From Pelotomaculum thermopropionicum SI (GTDB lineage: Bacteria; Bacillota; Desulfotomaculia; Desulfotomaculales; Pelotomaculaceae): a DNA stretch of 64,000 nt. This document shows positions 46,766 to 62,198 of the stretch, in pieces. The translations under genes and the position numbers were made by a program. How positions within the stretch are numbered: the first letter of the stretch is position 1; each line of letters opens with the position of its first letter. The notes beneath the pieces are model-generated. The model saw only the letters and a list, made by a program, of their open reading frames with translations, ran no database searches and had not been told where the DNA came from. The DNA is taken from contig AP009389.1 in assembly GCA_000010565.1 (NCBI GenBank), positions 124,001 through 188,000 on the forward strand. Direction: 5' to 3'.

Positions 46766-46769
46766 TGGT

Positions 46770-47700
46770 CAGTCAGTTTGAGCAGGCGCCCGATGGGCGG
46801 CCTGCTTCCGGGCCGCCCGGGCACCCCGCCGGCTAACCAATAGCCGCGGAGCTAAAAACGAACGAAAGCCTTATACCAAACAACCGCCGTGGCCAAGGCG
46901 TTAAAAGTGGCCACGATCTACCTTCTTCCGGGTAGTTCGGCACCCTTAAACTTCTCTTCTAAATGACCGTTACCCCCCGGCTGCATTAGCAGCCGCGCGC
47001 GTGGTTGGTCAACGTTGATGACCCGTTGCTGGAGGGTGTCCCGGCACGGCGAGAGCGCATTTTACCGTATTCATTCGCAAATACGGGACCGGATGTGTTG
47101 CCCAAAAAGGCAATTTTACCCCGAAACGGCTGAAGGCAATTCCCGCCAGAGGCCAAATCGGGCCAAAATTGTTTACCCGCTAAAGCTCGCCGGGGCGCCG
47201 CGTACGAGGTAAGTATACGGGGACCGGGCGGGTAGAATGCCGCAGGTGCAGTACCCGGATCACGGGGTAATAGTGAGACGCTAAAATGTAGCGGGCTTGG
47301 AGGGACCGGGAAGGAAGGACAAATACATATCCTGCTGAGCTAACGGTGGGAAAAACGCCGACAGGCGCACACTTCGCGCAGCGGCCGGGGCAACGGAGCC
47401 GAGCGCCGGCGAAGGGAGCCTGGTAAGGCGAACCGTAGCTGGAAGGGCGCGGCCCCGCGAGAACGCGGCGCGCACCGCCAGCGGCGGCAATGCGGAGCTC
47501 TCTGGAGCGGAGCCGCCCCGTAAGGGGCGCCGGAGGCTTTAGCCGACGTTTATTCGTGAAGCGTAGCGGAGCGAATAAACGTCGGCCTTCAGGCCGACGC
47601 AACAGAGCGAAAAGCTCTGCATTGCTATTGCCTTTTTCAGGCCCGGCAGGGCTGAAATAAAAAAGATCGGAGGGAAATCAAAGATATTGCAATGCCCGGG
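46770..47700 (+). ncRNA. candidate giant structured RNA (about 930 nt)
   Basis: No gene is credible in 46766-47745. Many stems are visible: GCAGGC-GCCC...GGGC-G-GCCTGC (near 46787), CGGCTGC-ATTA-GCAGCCG (near 46979), CCGTATT...AATACGG, CGCCCC-GTAA-GGGGCG (GNRA-type loop), CCGCG-AGAA-CGCGG, and a perfect 14-bp stem CCGACGTTTATTCG...CGAATAAACGTCGG (47540-47584). Its 3' arm can alternatively pair with the next CCGACG through CGTCGGCC-TTCA-GGCCGACG. A GAGC-GAAA-GCTC hairpin follows. It ends about 45 bases before the tyrosine recombinase gene. Size and position resemble GOLLD-like RNAs, but this is not established. Confidence 0.55.
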
Positions 47701-47745
47701 CTCAGTGGCTTTATTTCTGAGAAAGGGGGGTAAAAATTTTAAAAT

Positions 47746-50978: not shown

Positions 50979-51026
50979 TTATACCACATCTGATATAATT
51001 ATAACCACAAAGAAGGAGTGTTGCCT

Positions 51027-51893
51027 TTGGCCGAATACGACCTGATCATTAAGGCCCTGGCGGAGCGGTACATGGACAAGATAGCCGCCTTCATCCGGGG
51101 CGTGGAAGTATCCGTGGAACAAATCGAAGACAAAGACAAAGAGGCCGTGGCCGTGCAGCGTACCTCCGACGCCCTGGTCAAGGTGCGCGAAGACGGTTAC
51201 GAATACCTGATGCTGGTGGAGTTCCAGGCCAGGCCGGACCGGAAGATGGCCAGGCGGCTTCTAGAGTACACGGCCATGCACCACCGCCGGTATGAGAAGC
51301 CGGTTTACCCGGTGGTGATCAACCTGACCGGCAGCGGCCGGCGGGATGAACGGTACATAGTCGAGTGCCTTGACCTGACCGTGATCGATTTCAGCTACCG
51401 GCAGATCAACCTGGAGGACATCGCCGGCCGGGATCTGCTTTACCGGGGGCCGGTGGGCCTTTTGCCCCTGGCTCCACTGATGCGGCAGGAGGAAACTCCG
51501 GAGGCGGTGCTGGAGAAGTGCGCAAGTCGGTTTGAGTCTGAAGTACAAGGAGAAGAAGAAAGGGCCACTCTTTACCTTGCCCTGGGTGTTTTGGCGGCGT
51601 TAAAGATCCAGAAGGGTTTAGTTCAAAAAATACTGGAGGTGAGCAAGATGGAAAACTCCCCGTTTTTTGACGGCATCCGGGAAGAATGGGAAGCCAGGGG
51701 ACGCGGTGAAGGGATAGTCGAGTCCATCCTGGAAGCCCTCGAAGAGAACACCGGGCAGCGGCCGGCCGGGTTAAAAGAAAGCCTATCCGCCGTAAAAGAC
51801 GGTGAACTTTTAAAGAAAATCCTTCGTCGGGCGGTAAAGGCCAGGACCTTGGAAGATTTTGAACTGGCGCTGAAAGAACTAATGCCGAACTAA
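51027..51893 (+). CDS. Rpn/PD-(D/E)XK nuclease-like protein with DUF4351
   Basis: 288 residues from TTG 51027 (AAGGAG 8 bases upstream). The first half has DALVKVREDGYEYLMLVEFQ with RPDRKMARRLLEY, the PD-(D/E)XK region of Rpn/YhgA-like transposase-associated nucleases (D...E-Q). The C-terminal 55 residues (LLKKILRRAVKARTLEDFEL, ALKELMPN) match DUF4351. Proteins of this type are often multicopy, promote RecA-independent recombination in enteric relatives, and some protect against phages. An intrinsic terminator follows. Confidence 0.85.
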   Translation: MAEYDLIIKALAERYMDKIAAFIRGVEVSVEQIEDKDKEAVAVQRTSDALVKVREDGYEYLMLVEFQARPDRKMARRLLEYTAMHHRRYEKPVYPVVINLTGSGRRDERYIVECLDLTVIDFSYRQINLEDIAGRDLLYRGPVGLLPLAPLMRQEETPEAVLEKCASRFESEVQGEEERATLYLALGVLAALKIQKGLVQKILEVSKMENSPFFDGIREEWEARGRGEGIVESILEALEENTGQRPAGLKESLSAVKDGELLKKILRRAVKARTLEDFELALKELMPN

Positions 51894-52167: not shown

Positions 52168-53763
52168 ATGGACGAGGAGTATATGCCTGCCCACATACAG
52201 GGCAGGAAGCTTGATGTTTTGGACGACCCATCTAAAACTATTGATCAGAAAGGTATTGATGTAGGCGGGTACATAAGAATATCTACAAAAAAAGATAGTC
52301 AAAAGACCAGCATAGAAAATCAGGAAAAGCTTCTTAAGCAGTGGGCGGATGTTAACGGTTATAACCTATACCGTTGCTACACTGACGTTAAAACAGGGAA
52401 GTACATGTATTTGAGAAATGAAGTCCAGCAAATGCTTGAGGACTTAAAAGAAGGGAAAATCAGGGGAGTAGTAAGTAAGGAAATTGCCCGGACAAGCAGG
52501 GACATAATGGATGTTCTGGATTTAAAAAGAAAGATAGTTTCACTTGGAGGGTTTTTTAAAGCAATTAAGGAAAATTATGATAGCAGAACGGATGACGACG
52601 AGTTTCTGCTGGTGCTCTATGGAGCACTTGCTCAAAAGGAGCAAAAAACGACAGCAAGCAGGGTCAAGGTTACCCAACTAATAAAGGCAAAAGAGGGTAA
52701 AACAAATGTTCCCCTCCCTGCTTTTGGATACATGTTAAGTGAAGATAGACAGCGCTTAGTTAGAAATCCAGAAACATACCCGCACTATCGTTTTATGGTT
52801 GAGAGATTTATAAATGGCTGGGGACAGCTGAAGATAGCTAAATATTTGAATAAAAACGGCATACTCAGCAGGCGCGGTTGTAAATGGAGCACCTCAGCCA
52901 TTAAGACGATTCTTACAAATCCCGTTTACTTGGGGGTTACTATTTACAATACTACCACTTTAATTAGGGACCATGAGGGAAAGCAAAAGCGGGTCATGAG
53001 GCCCCGCGACGAATGGATTATTAGGTATAATACACACGAGCCATTAATCACCGAGGAAGAGTTTAAAAAAATACAGGCAATTCTCCAAGAGCGCAGTGAA
53101 AAAGACTGTAAAGAGTGGACCTGTGAAAGGAAGTATTTGGGTTCAACCTTACTTAGGTGTGCAGTTTGCGGAGGAAAGATTTACGGCTCACGCTTTATGT
53201 CAAAGAAGAAAGGAGCCGGTTATTTTTACAGATATATATGCCGGGGTGTCAACGGTAACTGCAACTCTCCTGCAAAATACTGGGATATGGAAAAGGTCGA
53301 TTGGAATATAAGAGAATTATTCCGGACTTTGTTCGGAGATAAAGAAAAATTGTTTGATTACATCCAGAAGGAGCCAGGTATATTAAACGAGGACACGTCC
53401 GAATTCTTGAAAGAAAGAGACGCTTTAATAAACAAAGTAGTCCACATTGACCGGGCTATGAAAAAGCAGCAATCAGCCTTTGAAAATGATGCCATTACAA
53501 TGGATGAATATAAGACACGTTTAGCTGAACTGAGAGCGGAAAAAAATGAGGCTTTAGCAAGGATTGGTAAACTGGACGCAAAGCTCTTGCGACATGACTC
53601 TGTAATGGACAGGCTAAAAAAAGTGCTCAATCGGGTTTCCGATAAAATTGAACGGATTCACGAATTACCTACCGAGGAGGTGGCTGAATATCTGGATGCA
53701 GTTTTCGAAAGCCTCTATTTAGGTGAAGATGGAACCATAGTTGATGTTGAGTTTAAAGACTGA
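52168..53763 (+). CDS. large serine recombinase at the island's right border
   Basis: 531 residues, ATG after GGGAG at 9 bases. A 33-residue N-terminal extension precedes the resolvase domain (GGYIRISTKKDS, catalytic serine S39; SKEIARTSRDIMDVLDLKRK; YGALAQKEQKTTASRVK). The Recombinase domain (LKIAKYLNKNGILSRRG, AIKTILTNPVYLGVTIYN), a zinc ribbon (LRCAVCGGKIYG ... CRGVNGNCNS) and a coiled coil (about 400-460) follow. The stop lies 12 bases from the border with the cotJC N-terminal fragment, the usual integrase-next-to-att arrangement. Intact; predicted to integrate and excise the element at cotJC. Confidence 0.93.
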   Translation: MDEEYMPAHIQGRKLDVLDDPSKTIDQKGIDVGGYIRISTKKDSQKTSIENQEKLLKQWADVNGYNLYRCYTDVKTGKYMYLRNEVQQMLEDLKEGKIRGVVSKEIARTSRDIMDVLDLKRKIVSLGGFFKAIKENYDSRTDDDEFLLVLYGALAQKEQKTTASRVKVTQLIKAKEGKTNVPLPAFGYMLSEDRQRLVRNPETYPHYRFMVERFINGWGQLKIAKYLNKNGILSRRGCKWSTSAIKTILTNPVYLGVTIYNTTTLIRDHEGKQKRVMRPRDEWIIRYNTHEPLITEEEFKKIQAILQERSEKDCKEWTCERKYLGSTLLRCAVCGGKIYGSRFMSKKKGAGYFYRYICRGVNGNCNSPAKYWDMEKVDWNIRELFRTLFGDKEKLFDYIQKEPGILNEDTSEFLKERDALINKVVHIDRAMKKQQSAFENDAITMDEYKTRLAELRAEKNEALARIGKLDAKLLRHDSVMDRLKKVLNRVSDKIERIHELPTEEVAEYLDAVFESLYLGEDGTIVDVEFKD

Positions 53764-61806: not shown

Positions 61807-62035
61807 AAAGGACAAGGAATTGCTTTTTTTTGGCTTAAATTAAAGATATCCCGTTCAAAAGCCATTTTTGAAGCAAAATATTGTAAAATTTTGAAACACG
61901 GTTCCAAAATGTAACATCGTTACTTTATTTTCAGGCGTCACCTGTTCAAAAGCGATACTGCCGGAAGACGCGCCATAGTGGCAAGAATATTGCTAAAGTT
62001 AATTCACGGGTTAATCTAAAAACCGGTTAAGTTAA

Positions 62036-62198
62036 AAATCTCCGAGCCGGTGAGCCTTAGCCGAAGAGGTATGGCTGCCTGGCCGTTAGGGTGCAGCGGG
62101 AAACTGTTGCGCCTCCCACTCAGGAAAGGAGAACATATGCTTTAAGATTATGTAAAGCTTCTTCCTTTTGCTTGTGGGAGGAAGCTTTAATATTTTTG
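62036..62198 (+). ncRNA. Moco (molybdenum/tungsten cofactor) riboswitch with terminator
   Basis: The conserved Moco-motif blocks appear in order: CTCCGAGCC, CCGAAGAGGTATGGCTGCC, GGGTGCAGCGGGAAACTGTT and GCGCCTCCCAC (about 62040-62119). An expression platform follows: AAAGCTTCTTCC (62154-62165) pairs with GGAGGAAGCTTT (62177-62188) and leads into ATATTTTTG, a terminator. GTGGGAGG (62174-62181) is complementary to the aptamer's CCTCCCAC (62112-62119), an alternative antiterminator pair. Moco motifs commonly control molybdenum enzymes or cofactor synthesis; here the next gene is an Fe-S/membrane oxidoreductase. Confidence 0.8.

Follow-up and report, generated by a model that had tools for sequence, protein, structure and literature searches.

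A large structured, RNA-like element upstream of a tyrosine recombinase gene in integrative conjugative elements of the Desulfotomaculales

Judged by its arrangement, the mobilisation module of SGI1 is the closest functional precedent for the locus that we describe here. That module combines a tyrosine-recombinase relaxase, MpsA, with its partner MpsB, an oriT and a transfer-essential RNA, sgm-sRNA, which is encoded between mpsA and oriT, has a primary transcript of ~650-700 nt with a core of ~280 bp, and has been described as unique (PMC9299015, PMC6414798). TcpM, MpsA and MobK all act on an oriT, which lies close to the gene in the case of MpsA and MobK; the known oriTs of tyrosine-recombinase-like relaxases are 125-186 bp long (PMC6414798, PMC8152469), and MpsA, TcpM and MobK have been described as lacking a core-binding domain (PMC8152469). 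Large, ornate RNAs, namely GOLLD, ROOL and OLE, form a second point of comparison (PMC12286853).

Our analysis concerns a window of 64,000 nt from Pelotomaculum thermopropionicum SI (contig AP009389.1, positions 124,001 to 188,000), within which all window coordinates are given. A noncoding stretch of ~0.7-0.9 kb lies between an ssb remnant and a tyrosine recombinase gene (Table 1). The initial annotation had described this region as strongly structured, which is confirmed both by folding against shuffles and by conservation in relatives: the plus strand of 46766-47745 folds at -429.7 kcal/mol, as against -384.8 +/- 6.1 kcal/mol for dinucleotide shuffles (z -7.3; none of 20 shuffles was as good), and the minus strand has a weaker fold excess (z -5.3). 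The first 170 bases (46766-46935) are without an aligned relative. The element is present as a single copy in the 3,025,375-base, single-contig genome, ruling out a multi-copy repeat, and promoter scans of the region gave nothing above chance. The residues R187, K216/K219, H302, R305, H381 and Y390 of the recombinase are invariant in 12 homologues; the protein has a profile match to Xer-like recombinases and none above cut-off to Pfam Phage_integrase (PF00589), and an AlphaFold model built from three sequences (mean pLDDT 52) was too poor to use.

Table 1. Features of the noncoding region and its flanking genes, in window coordinates.
Feature	Position	Strand	Remarks
ssb 5' remnant, 48 codons	46619-46765	+	in-frame fusion of ~36 ssb codons to a short unrelated tail; relic of the leading genes of the element; intact ssb further upstream in L058 and L061
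5' variable hairpins, specific to this genome	46776-46935	+	strong in the fold; no alignable relative
Conserved structured RNA-like core, type A	46936-47690	+	81-82% identity to G055; consensus fold; plus-strand G-U excess
Match to covariance model built from 11 type B RNAs only	46941-47071	+	E 0.23 alone; placed on the homologous stretch and strand, and likewise for L012 and L013
CAACGTTGATGACCC, most conserved single-stranded motif common to types A and B	47010-47024	+	type B form AACGNYGATGACC
~103-base insertion capping one helix (CCCGCT..AGCGGG)	47187-47289	+	absent from L012 and L013
P9, long hairpin GCCGACGTTTATTCG..CGAATAAACGTCGGC	47542-47586	+	conserved in all relatives
Alternative hairpin CGTCGGCC-TTCA-GGCCGACG	47580-47599	+	competes with base of P9; counterparts in L012 and L013
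P10 region, GCATTGCTATTGCCTT..	47617-47694	+	k-mer TTGCTATTGCCTT common with type B P10; P10 covariation in type B
Inner hairpin with GGCA loop, inside P10 region	47638-47654	+	
Tyrosine recombinase, 395 aa	47746-48933	+	full catalytic set; may be an integrase or a relaxase-like Mob protein

A search with the recombinase identified two close relatives, in Desulfofundulus thermobenzoicus (locus L012) and Desulfotomaculum copahuensis (L013), whose recombinases are 67-71% identical to the window protein. Together with the window these make up type A: the three RNA-like regions share ~650 nt when aligned, and a DNA search found the same core in G055. The type A consensus fold (window 46921-47672 plus the two close relatives) reaches -464 kcal/mol, compared with -375 +/- 9.6 kcal/mol for column shuffles. 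Besides these two other genera, 11 more genomes of the same order carry a diverged form, type B. Recombinases of the type B loci, from ten other genomes of the order, share 43-46% identity with the window protein across the alignment, and nearly all of them have a structured region upstream on the same strand, with the hairpin GTTTATT..AATAAAC. A pattern search of 113 genomes of the order supplied the last of these ten, G047, whose recombinase is frameshifted and separated from the element by genes, and also an orphan copy in G075, where no recombinase was found. Types A and B have AACGTCGATGACC, CGAGAGCGCAT and TTGCTATTGCCTT in common, in the same order, and we therefore treat them as one family. 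Based solely on the 11 type B sequences, a covariance model refinds all of these and also weakly matches the homologous position, on the homologous strand, of all three type A loci (E values of 0.9 for L012 and 0.044 for L013); weak matches in G013, G062 and G077, and a second one in G092, looked like chance on inspection. The same model detected no further copies in a sample of 398 genomes of the phylum searched with strict filters, a search that also missed the type A copy of the window, and collections of phage, plasmid and viral sequences contained no DNA relative. Our searches used one genome per species and covered one order well; within that scope, the carriers are many related soil and subsurface bacteria. 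These elements make up a previously uncatalogued family, large, structured and RNA-like, which counts at least 14 members and has a clear neighbourhood; this would hold even if the family had no function in transfer.

The recombinase is a near-obligate part of that neighbourhood. The initial annotation had pointed out that the region directly precedes an integrase-type gene, and an intact recombinase gene does begin directly after it on the same strand; indeed, every intact relative of the recombinase that we examined has the element upstream on the same strand. The element is present in each of the 13 recombinase-carrying genomes and in 14 of the 113 overall, once on its own (hypergeometric P ~4e-16, a value that assumes independence and is weakened by the shared descent of the element). 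The co-occurrence may come only from both riding in one element. Elsewhere, the recombinase was found just in G123, with low similarity and without such a hairpin. The distance between element and recombinase ranges from a few tens of bases to several kb, and genes are inserted between the two in L012 and L060. The insertion in L012 (1063-2260) is an ORF in which an RNase HII-like part is joined to a C-terminal portion resembling DUF3854/toprim. Related genes that we take to belong to the Rpn-like (PD-(D/E)XK transposase-like) family lie near the element at 51018-51893 in the window and at L060:13991-14317, inserted after the element in G047. In L053, L054, L058 and L062, several copies of the palindrome TGTCCGGACA are arrayed within ~300 bases between element and recombinase; these look like repeated protein-binding sites.

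Genes further upstream and downstream place the family on integrative conjugative elements. In the relatives, the backbone consists of actin-like ParM, topoisomerase III (TopB), an S1 protein, SSB, ArdC, DUF3854 and RadC, followed by the RNA-like element and the recombinase, although not all of these genes are present in every element. The most complete copies have the order primase-like DUF3854 gene, RNA-like element, recombinase, VirD4; the VirD4 coupling protein that follows the recombinase in L012 and L013 is of the CD1115 family. The window holds a decayed copy that keeps the RNA-like element and the recombinase and has lost most other genes; upstream of the noncoding region it has toxin-antitoxin-like genes and the ssb stub. 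The initial annotation had suggested that the RNA replaced the body of ssb, for which a deletion is the simpler reading: a small gene ends just before the element in L013, and the tail of the ssb stub resembles the end of that small gene (IFAMEEGKLVAVQ; the similarity is short), so that a single in-frame deletion would account for the break in ssb. Thus, going by these sequences, the ssb body was probably removed by a deletion during decay. A 3' fragment of a tRNA-Pro gene directly follows the recombinase stop codon in L056 (8995-9053). It is likely to be an attachment site, as would fit an ordinary integrase, and was the one tRNA fragment that a search for attachment sites returned. Some elements have a large serine recombinase nearby (window 52168-53763; L057; L065), which could be the integrase of those elements.

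By analogy with SGI1, we tentatively propose that the element is a noncoding RNA, transcribed in the direction of the recombinase, that serves the tyrosine recombinase of Desulfotomaculales integrative conjugative elements. We put the probability of this reading at roughly 0.45, after weighing the tRNA-Pro fragment and the nearby large serine recombinases against an MpsA-like scheme. The RNA would belong to the recombination or mobilisation module of the element family, and the recombinase, as an integrase or as a relaxase of the tyrosine-recombinase type, would act at or near the RNA locus during excision or transfer. The RNA would serve it in the way that MpsA/MpsB is served by sgm-sRNA, probably with a part in the assembly or control of the recombinase complex, and an oriT may lie inside the RNA region.

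Conserved helices with compensatory changes are found in both types. The type B consensus fold scores -164, compared with -92 +/- 5.5 for shuffled alignments. In type B, the long-range helix P0, P3, P4 and a four-pair pseudoknot, evaluated as fixed helices, reach 97% pairing and include seven pairs in which both sides have changed; pairing falls to 24-47% when partners are slid by one to three columns. P9 and P10 add eleven pairs with two-sided change in type B, and P1 varies in sequence with its pairing kept. Comparative evidence makes the pseudoknot probable in type B RNAs; its support comes from two pair alternatives that split the type B sequences five to six, and hence possibly from one evolutionary event each. 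The same alignments indicate which strand folds. On the plus strand, type A has 61 G-U and 3 A-C cells, and deviations from Watson-Crick pairing in type B P0, P9 and P10 include 15 G-U and one A-C, the latter traced to a misplaced helix in L070; helix lengths for this count were fixed or chosen by Watson-Crick pairing only, and 24 further deviations of other kinds come mostly from misplaced helices. Since the non-Watson-Crick pairs are G-U and not A-C, it is the recombinase-sense strand that folds. An Frpo-like single-stranded-DNA promoter requires the template strand to be folded, and was rejected on these grounds.

The G-U asymmetry marks the strand only, and fits RNA and single-stranded DNA alike. 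The same pattern would therefore arise if the element acted as DNA, that is, as an oriT or recombination site whose sense strand folds when single-stranded and is the substrate of the recombinase acting as a relaxase. Such a site would be in the expected place, given that tyrosine-recombinase-like relaxases have their oriT near or directly upstream of the gene (PMC8152469, PMC6414798), and VirD4 follows the recombinase in the best copies. Hairpin loops in type B are often GGYA, with C(GGCA)G 11 times, C(GGTA)G nine times and T(GGTA)A eight times (examples are in L053:10838-11291 and L061:9298-9785), alongside some C(GNA)G. GNRA is the loop class usual in RNA, and C(GGYA)G and C(GNA)G loops are favoured in DNA; the GGYA loops could reflect either a loop-binding protein or single-stranded DNA. 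Nonetheless, we consider a DNA site rather unlikely, as the 650-900 nt conserved here far exceed the length of the known oriTs, and the long-range helices, probable pseudoknot and conserved unpaired motif resemble the fold of an RNA.

A serving RNA must also be weighed against a cis-regulatory 5' leader of the recombinase or transfer operon, with alternative pairings of the P8a/P9/P8b region as its switch. The initial annotation had reported mutually exclusive pairings, and these are present, at coordinates that differ by 1-3 from those given: a 15-bp stem joins 47542-47556 to 47572-47586, and 47580-47587 can form an alternative 8-bp stem (loop TTCA) with 47592-47599. The type B counterpart has the form CGACC-loop-GGTCG-TTTATTT..AAATAAA-CGACC-loop-GGTCG, such that a long hairpin competes with short flanking ones, and in L069 all three strands have changed together (GACAC/GTGTC/GACAC). 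The central hairpin is kept in all relatives and the alternative flanking hairpins less regularly; because the left short hairpin, P8a, is just 72% paired in the alignment, we regard the central hairpin as firm and switching as a suggestion. P9 was also considered as a loxP-like recombination site and rejected, its loop of ~9 to 24 nt being unlike a fixed overlap. In favour of a leader, P8a plus GTTTATTT resembles a weak terminator, and in the window, in L013 and at several type B loci the element directly precedes the recombinase start codon, on the same strand. The variable distance, inserted genes, low pairing of P8a, orphan copy in G075 and a size well beyond that of usual leaders all argue against it, and we judge a leader unlikely.

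The initial annotation had also raised the possibility of a giant phage RNA. The association of a noncoding element with a mobile element and its recombinase stands; a phage setting is not supported, as no relative was found in phage records or viral contigs and the neighbours are a conjugative backbone. A search of Rfam, including the GOLLD and ROOL models, gave no relevant match for the window region at the gathering threshold or at E values up to 10, and none for its relatives. GOLLD, ROOL, OLE, HEARO and group I and II introns were rejected for want of a covariance-model match, and the region is thus not a recognised group II intron remnant, GOLLD or ROOL. Elsewhere, Rfam identified a molybdenum/tungsten cofactor riboswitch in the window (62028-62147, plus strand, 74.9 bits) and a TwoAYGGAY RNA motif at L128:9092-9156 (46.4 bits). 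GOLLD and ROOL sit on mobile elements. Like them and OLE, the element is a large, strongly folded bacterial noncoding sequence; it differs in its link to a recombinase, its other neighbourhood and its lack of Rfam similarity and phage relatives. A free-standing RNA of the GOLLD/ROOL type, forming a large RNA-only particle, would suit the size, ornateness and mobile-element link, yet is very unlikely given these differences and a recombinase neighbourhood that is near-obligate. Lastly, chance hairpins in GC-rich intergenic DNA, or decayed coding sequence, are hardly credible despite the high GC content and many spurious ORFs on both strands of the region, being refuted by the compensatory changes, the conservation over 14 genomes and the alignment gaps among type A relatives, which keep no reading frame.

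A set of sister elements, type C, has another structured noncoding region in the same slot. DUF3854 is encoded in 33 of the 113 genomes, and seven elements without a window-type recombinase have 0.7-1.9 kb without convincing genes after DUF3854. Six of these regions align, with a consensus fold of -263 compared with -179 +/- 8; plus- and minus-strand folds are equal, such that the strand is not distinguishable. Where examined, the noncoding region is followed by an ORF with only a core-binding domain (confirmed by Pfam in L133, as Phage_int_SAM only, and in a longer form in L128) and then by a tyrosine recombinase of 320-335 aa; no such separate protein is found beside the window recombinase. 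VirD4 follows the type C recombinase in L126, L129, L130 and L134. The type C recombinase matches PF00589 and is a profile homologue of the window family (hhalign E 5.6e-7). Four genomes that carry type C elements (G094, G096, G099 and G100) have no relaxase of PF03432 or PF02486, the two families searched. The gene order, the coupling protein (near the recombinase in L013, L126 and L134) and the absence of these two families fit an MpsA-type scheme. L133 and a Sutcliffiella plasmid have ACAACTACATA in common with type A, a sequence likeness suggestive of homology between the type C region and types A and B.

Type C-like recombinases occur on small Bacillales plasmids too, among them plasmids of Brevibacillus, Sutcliffiella and Paenibacillus, where 1-1.5 kb of noncoding DNA with strong hairpins precedes the recombinase, and a Salmonella plasmid record has the same layout at lower similarity. 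Five plasmids typed as 'non-mobilizable' (L136, L137, L138, L139 and L140) carry a type C-like tyrosine recombinase after 1-1.5 kb of noncoding DNA; three (L136, L137 and L139) have long hairpins with GTCTCT or GTCTAT in the stem, where type C has GTCTCAG/CTGAGAC. These plasmid loci are possible unrecognised mobilisation modules. A broader conjecture, which we hold to be improbable, is that a large, fast-diverging RNA is a standard part of widespread conjugative and plasmid systems with a tyrosine-recombinase relaxase, and that this RNA, rather than protein accessory factors, helps to build or guide the transfer complex. If so, sgm-sRNA of SGI1 would be one outlying case of a general principle of RNA-assisted mobilisation.

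Among described systems, the integrase modules of Tn916-like elements in Firmicutes are similar in that the tyrosine recombinase may lie at the element end, as the tRNA-Pro fragment of L056 suggests; we know of no such structured RNA upstream of those integrases. TcpM of pCW3 and MobK of pIGRK, which we set beside the element by description, also have a noncoding region with inverted repeats before the recombinase gene, in a conjugative setting; their oriTs are far shorter and no RNA has been reported there (PMC8152469). Unlike MpsA, TcpM and MobK, the recombinases here have a core-binding domain or an equivalent region. The likeness to SGI1 is one of arrangement and not of sequence: in both, a noncoding RNA region, putative in our case, lies beside a lambda-type tyrosine recombinase in a context of DNA transfer, and the sister elements add a partner with only a core-binding domain, like MpsB. 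SGI1 is a gammaproteobacterial mobilisable island, whereas the element described here belongs to the Desulfotomaculales, spans 650-900 nt and is conserved by structure. With a large structured RNA next to a tyrosine recombinase in conjugative elements of a second, independent lineage, supported this time by a comparative structure model, the idea of RNA-assisted DNA transfer or recombination would become testable.
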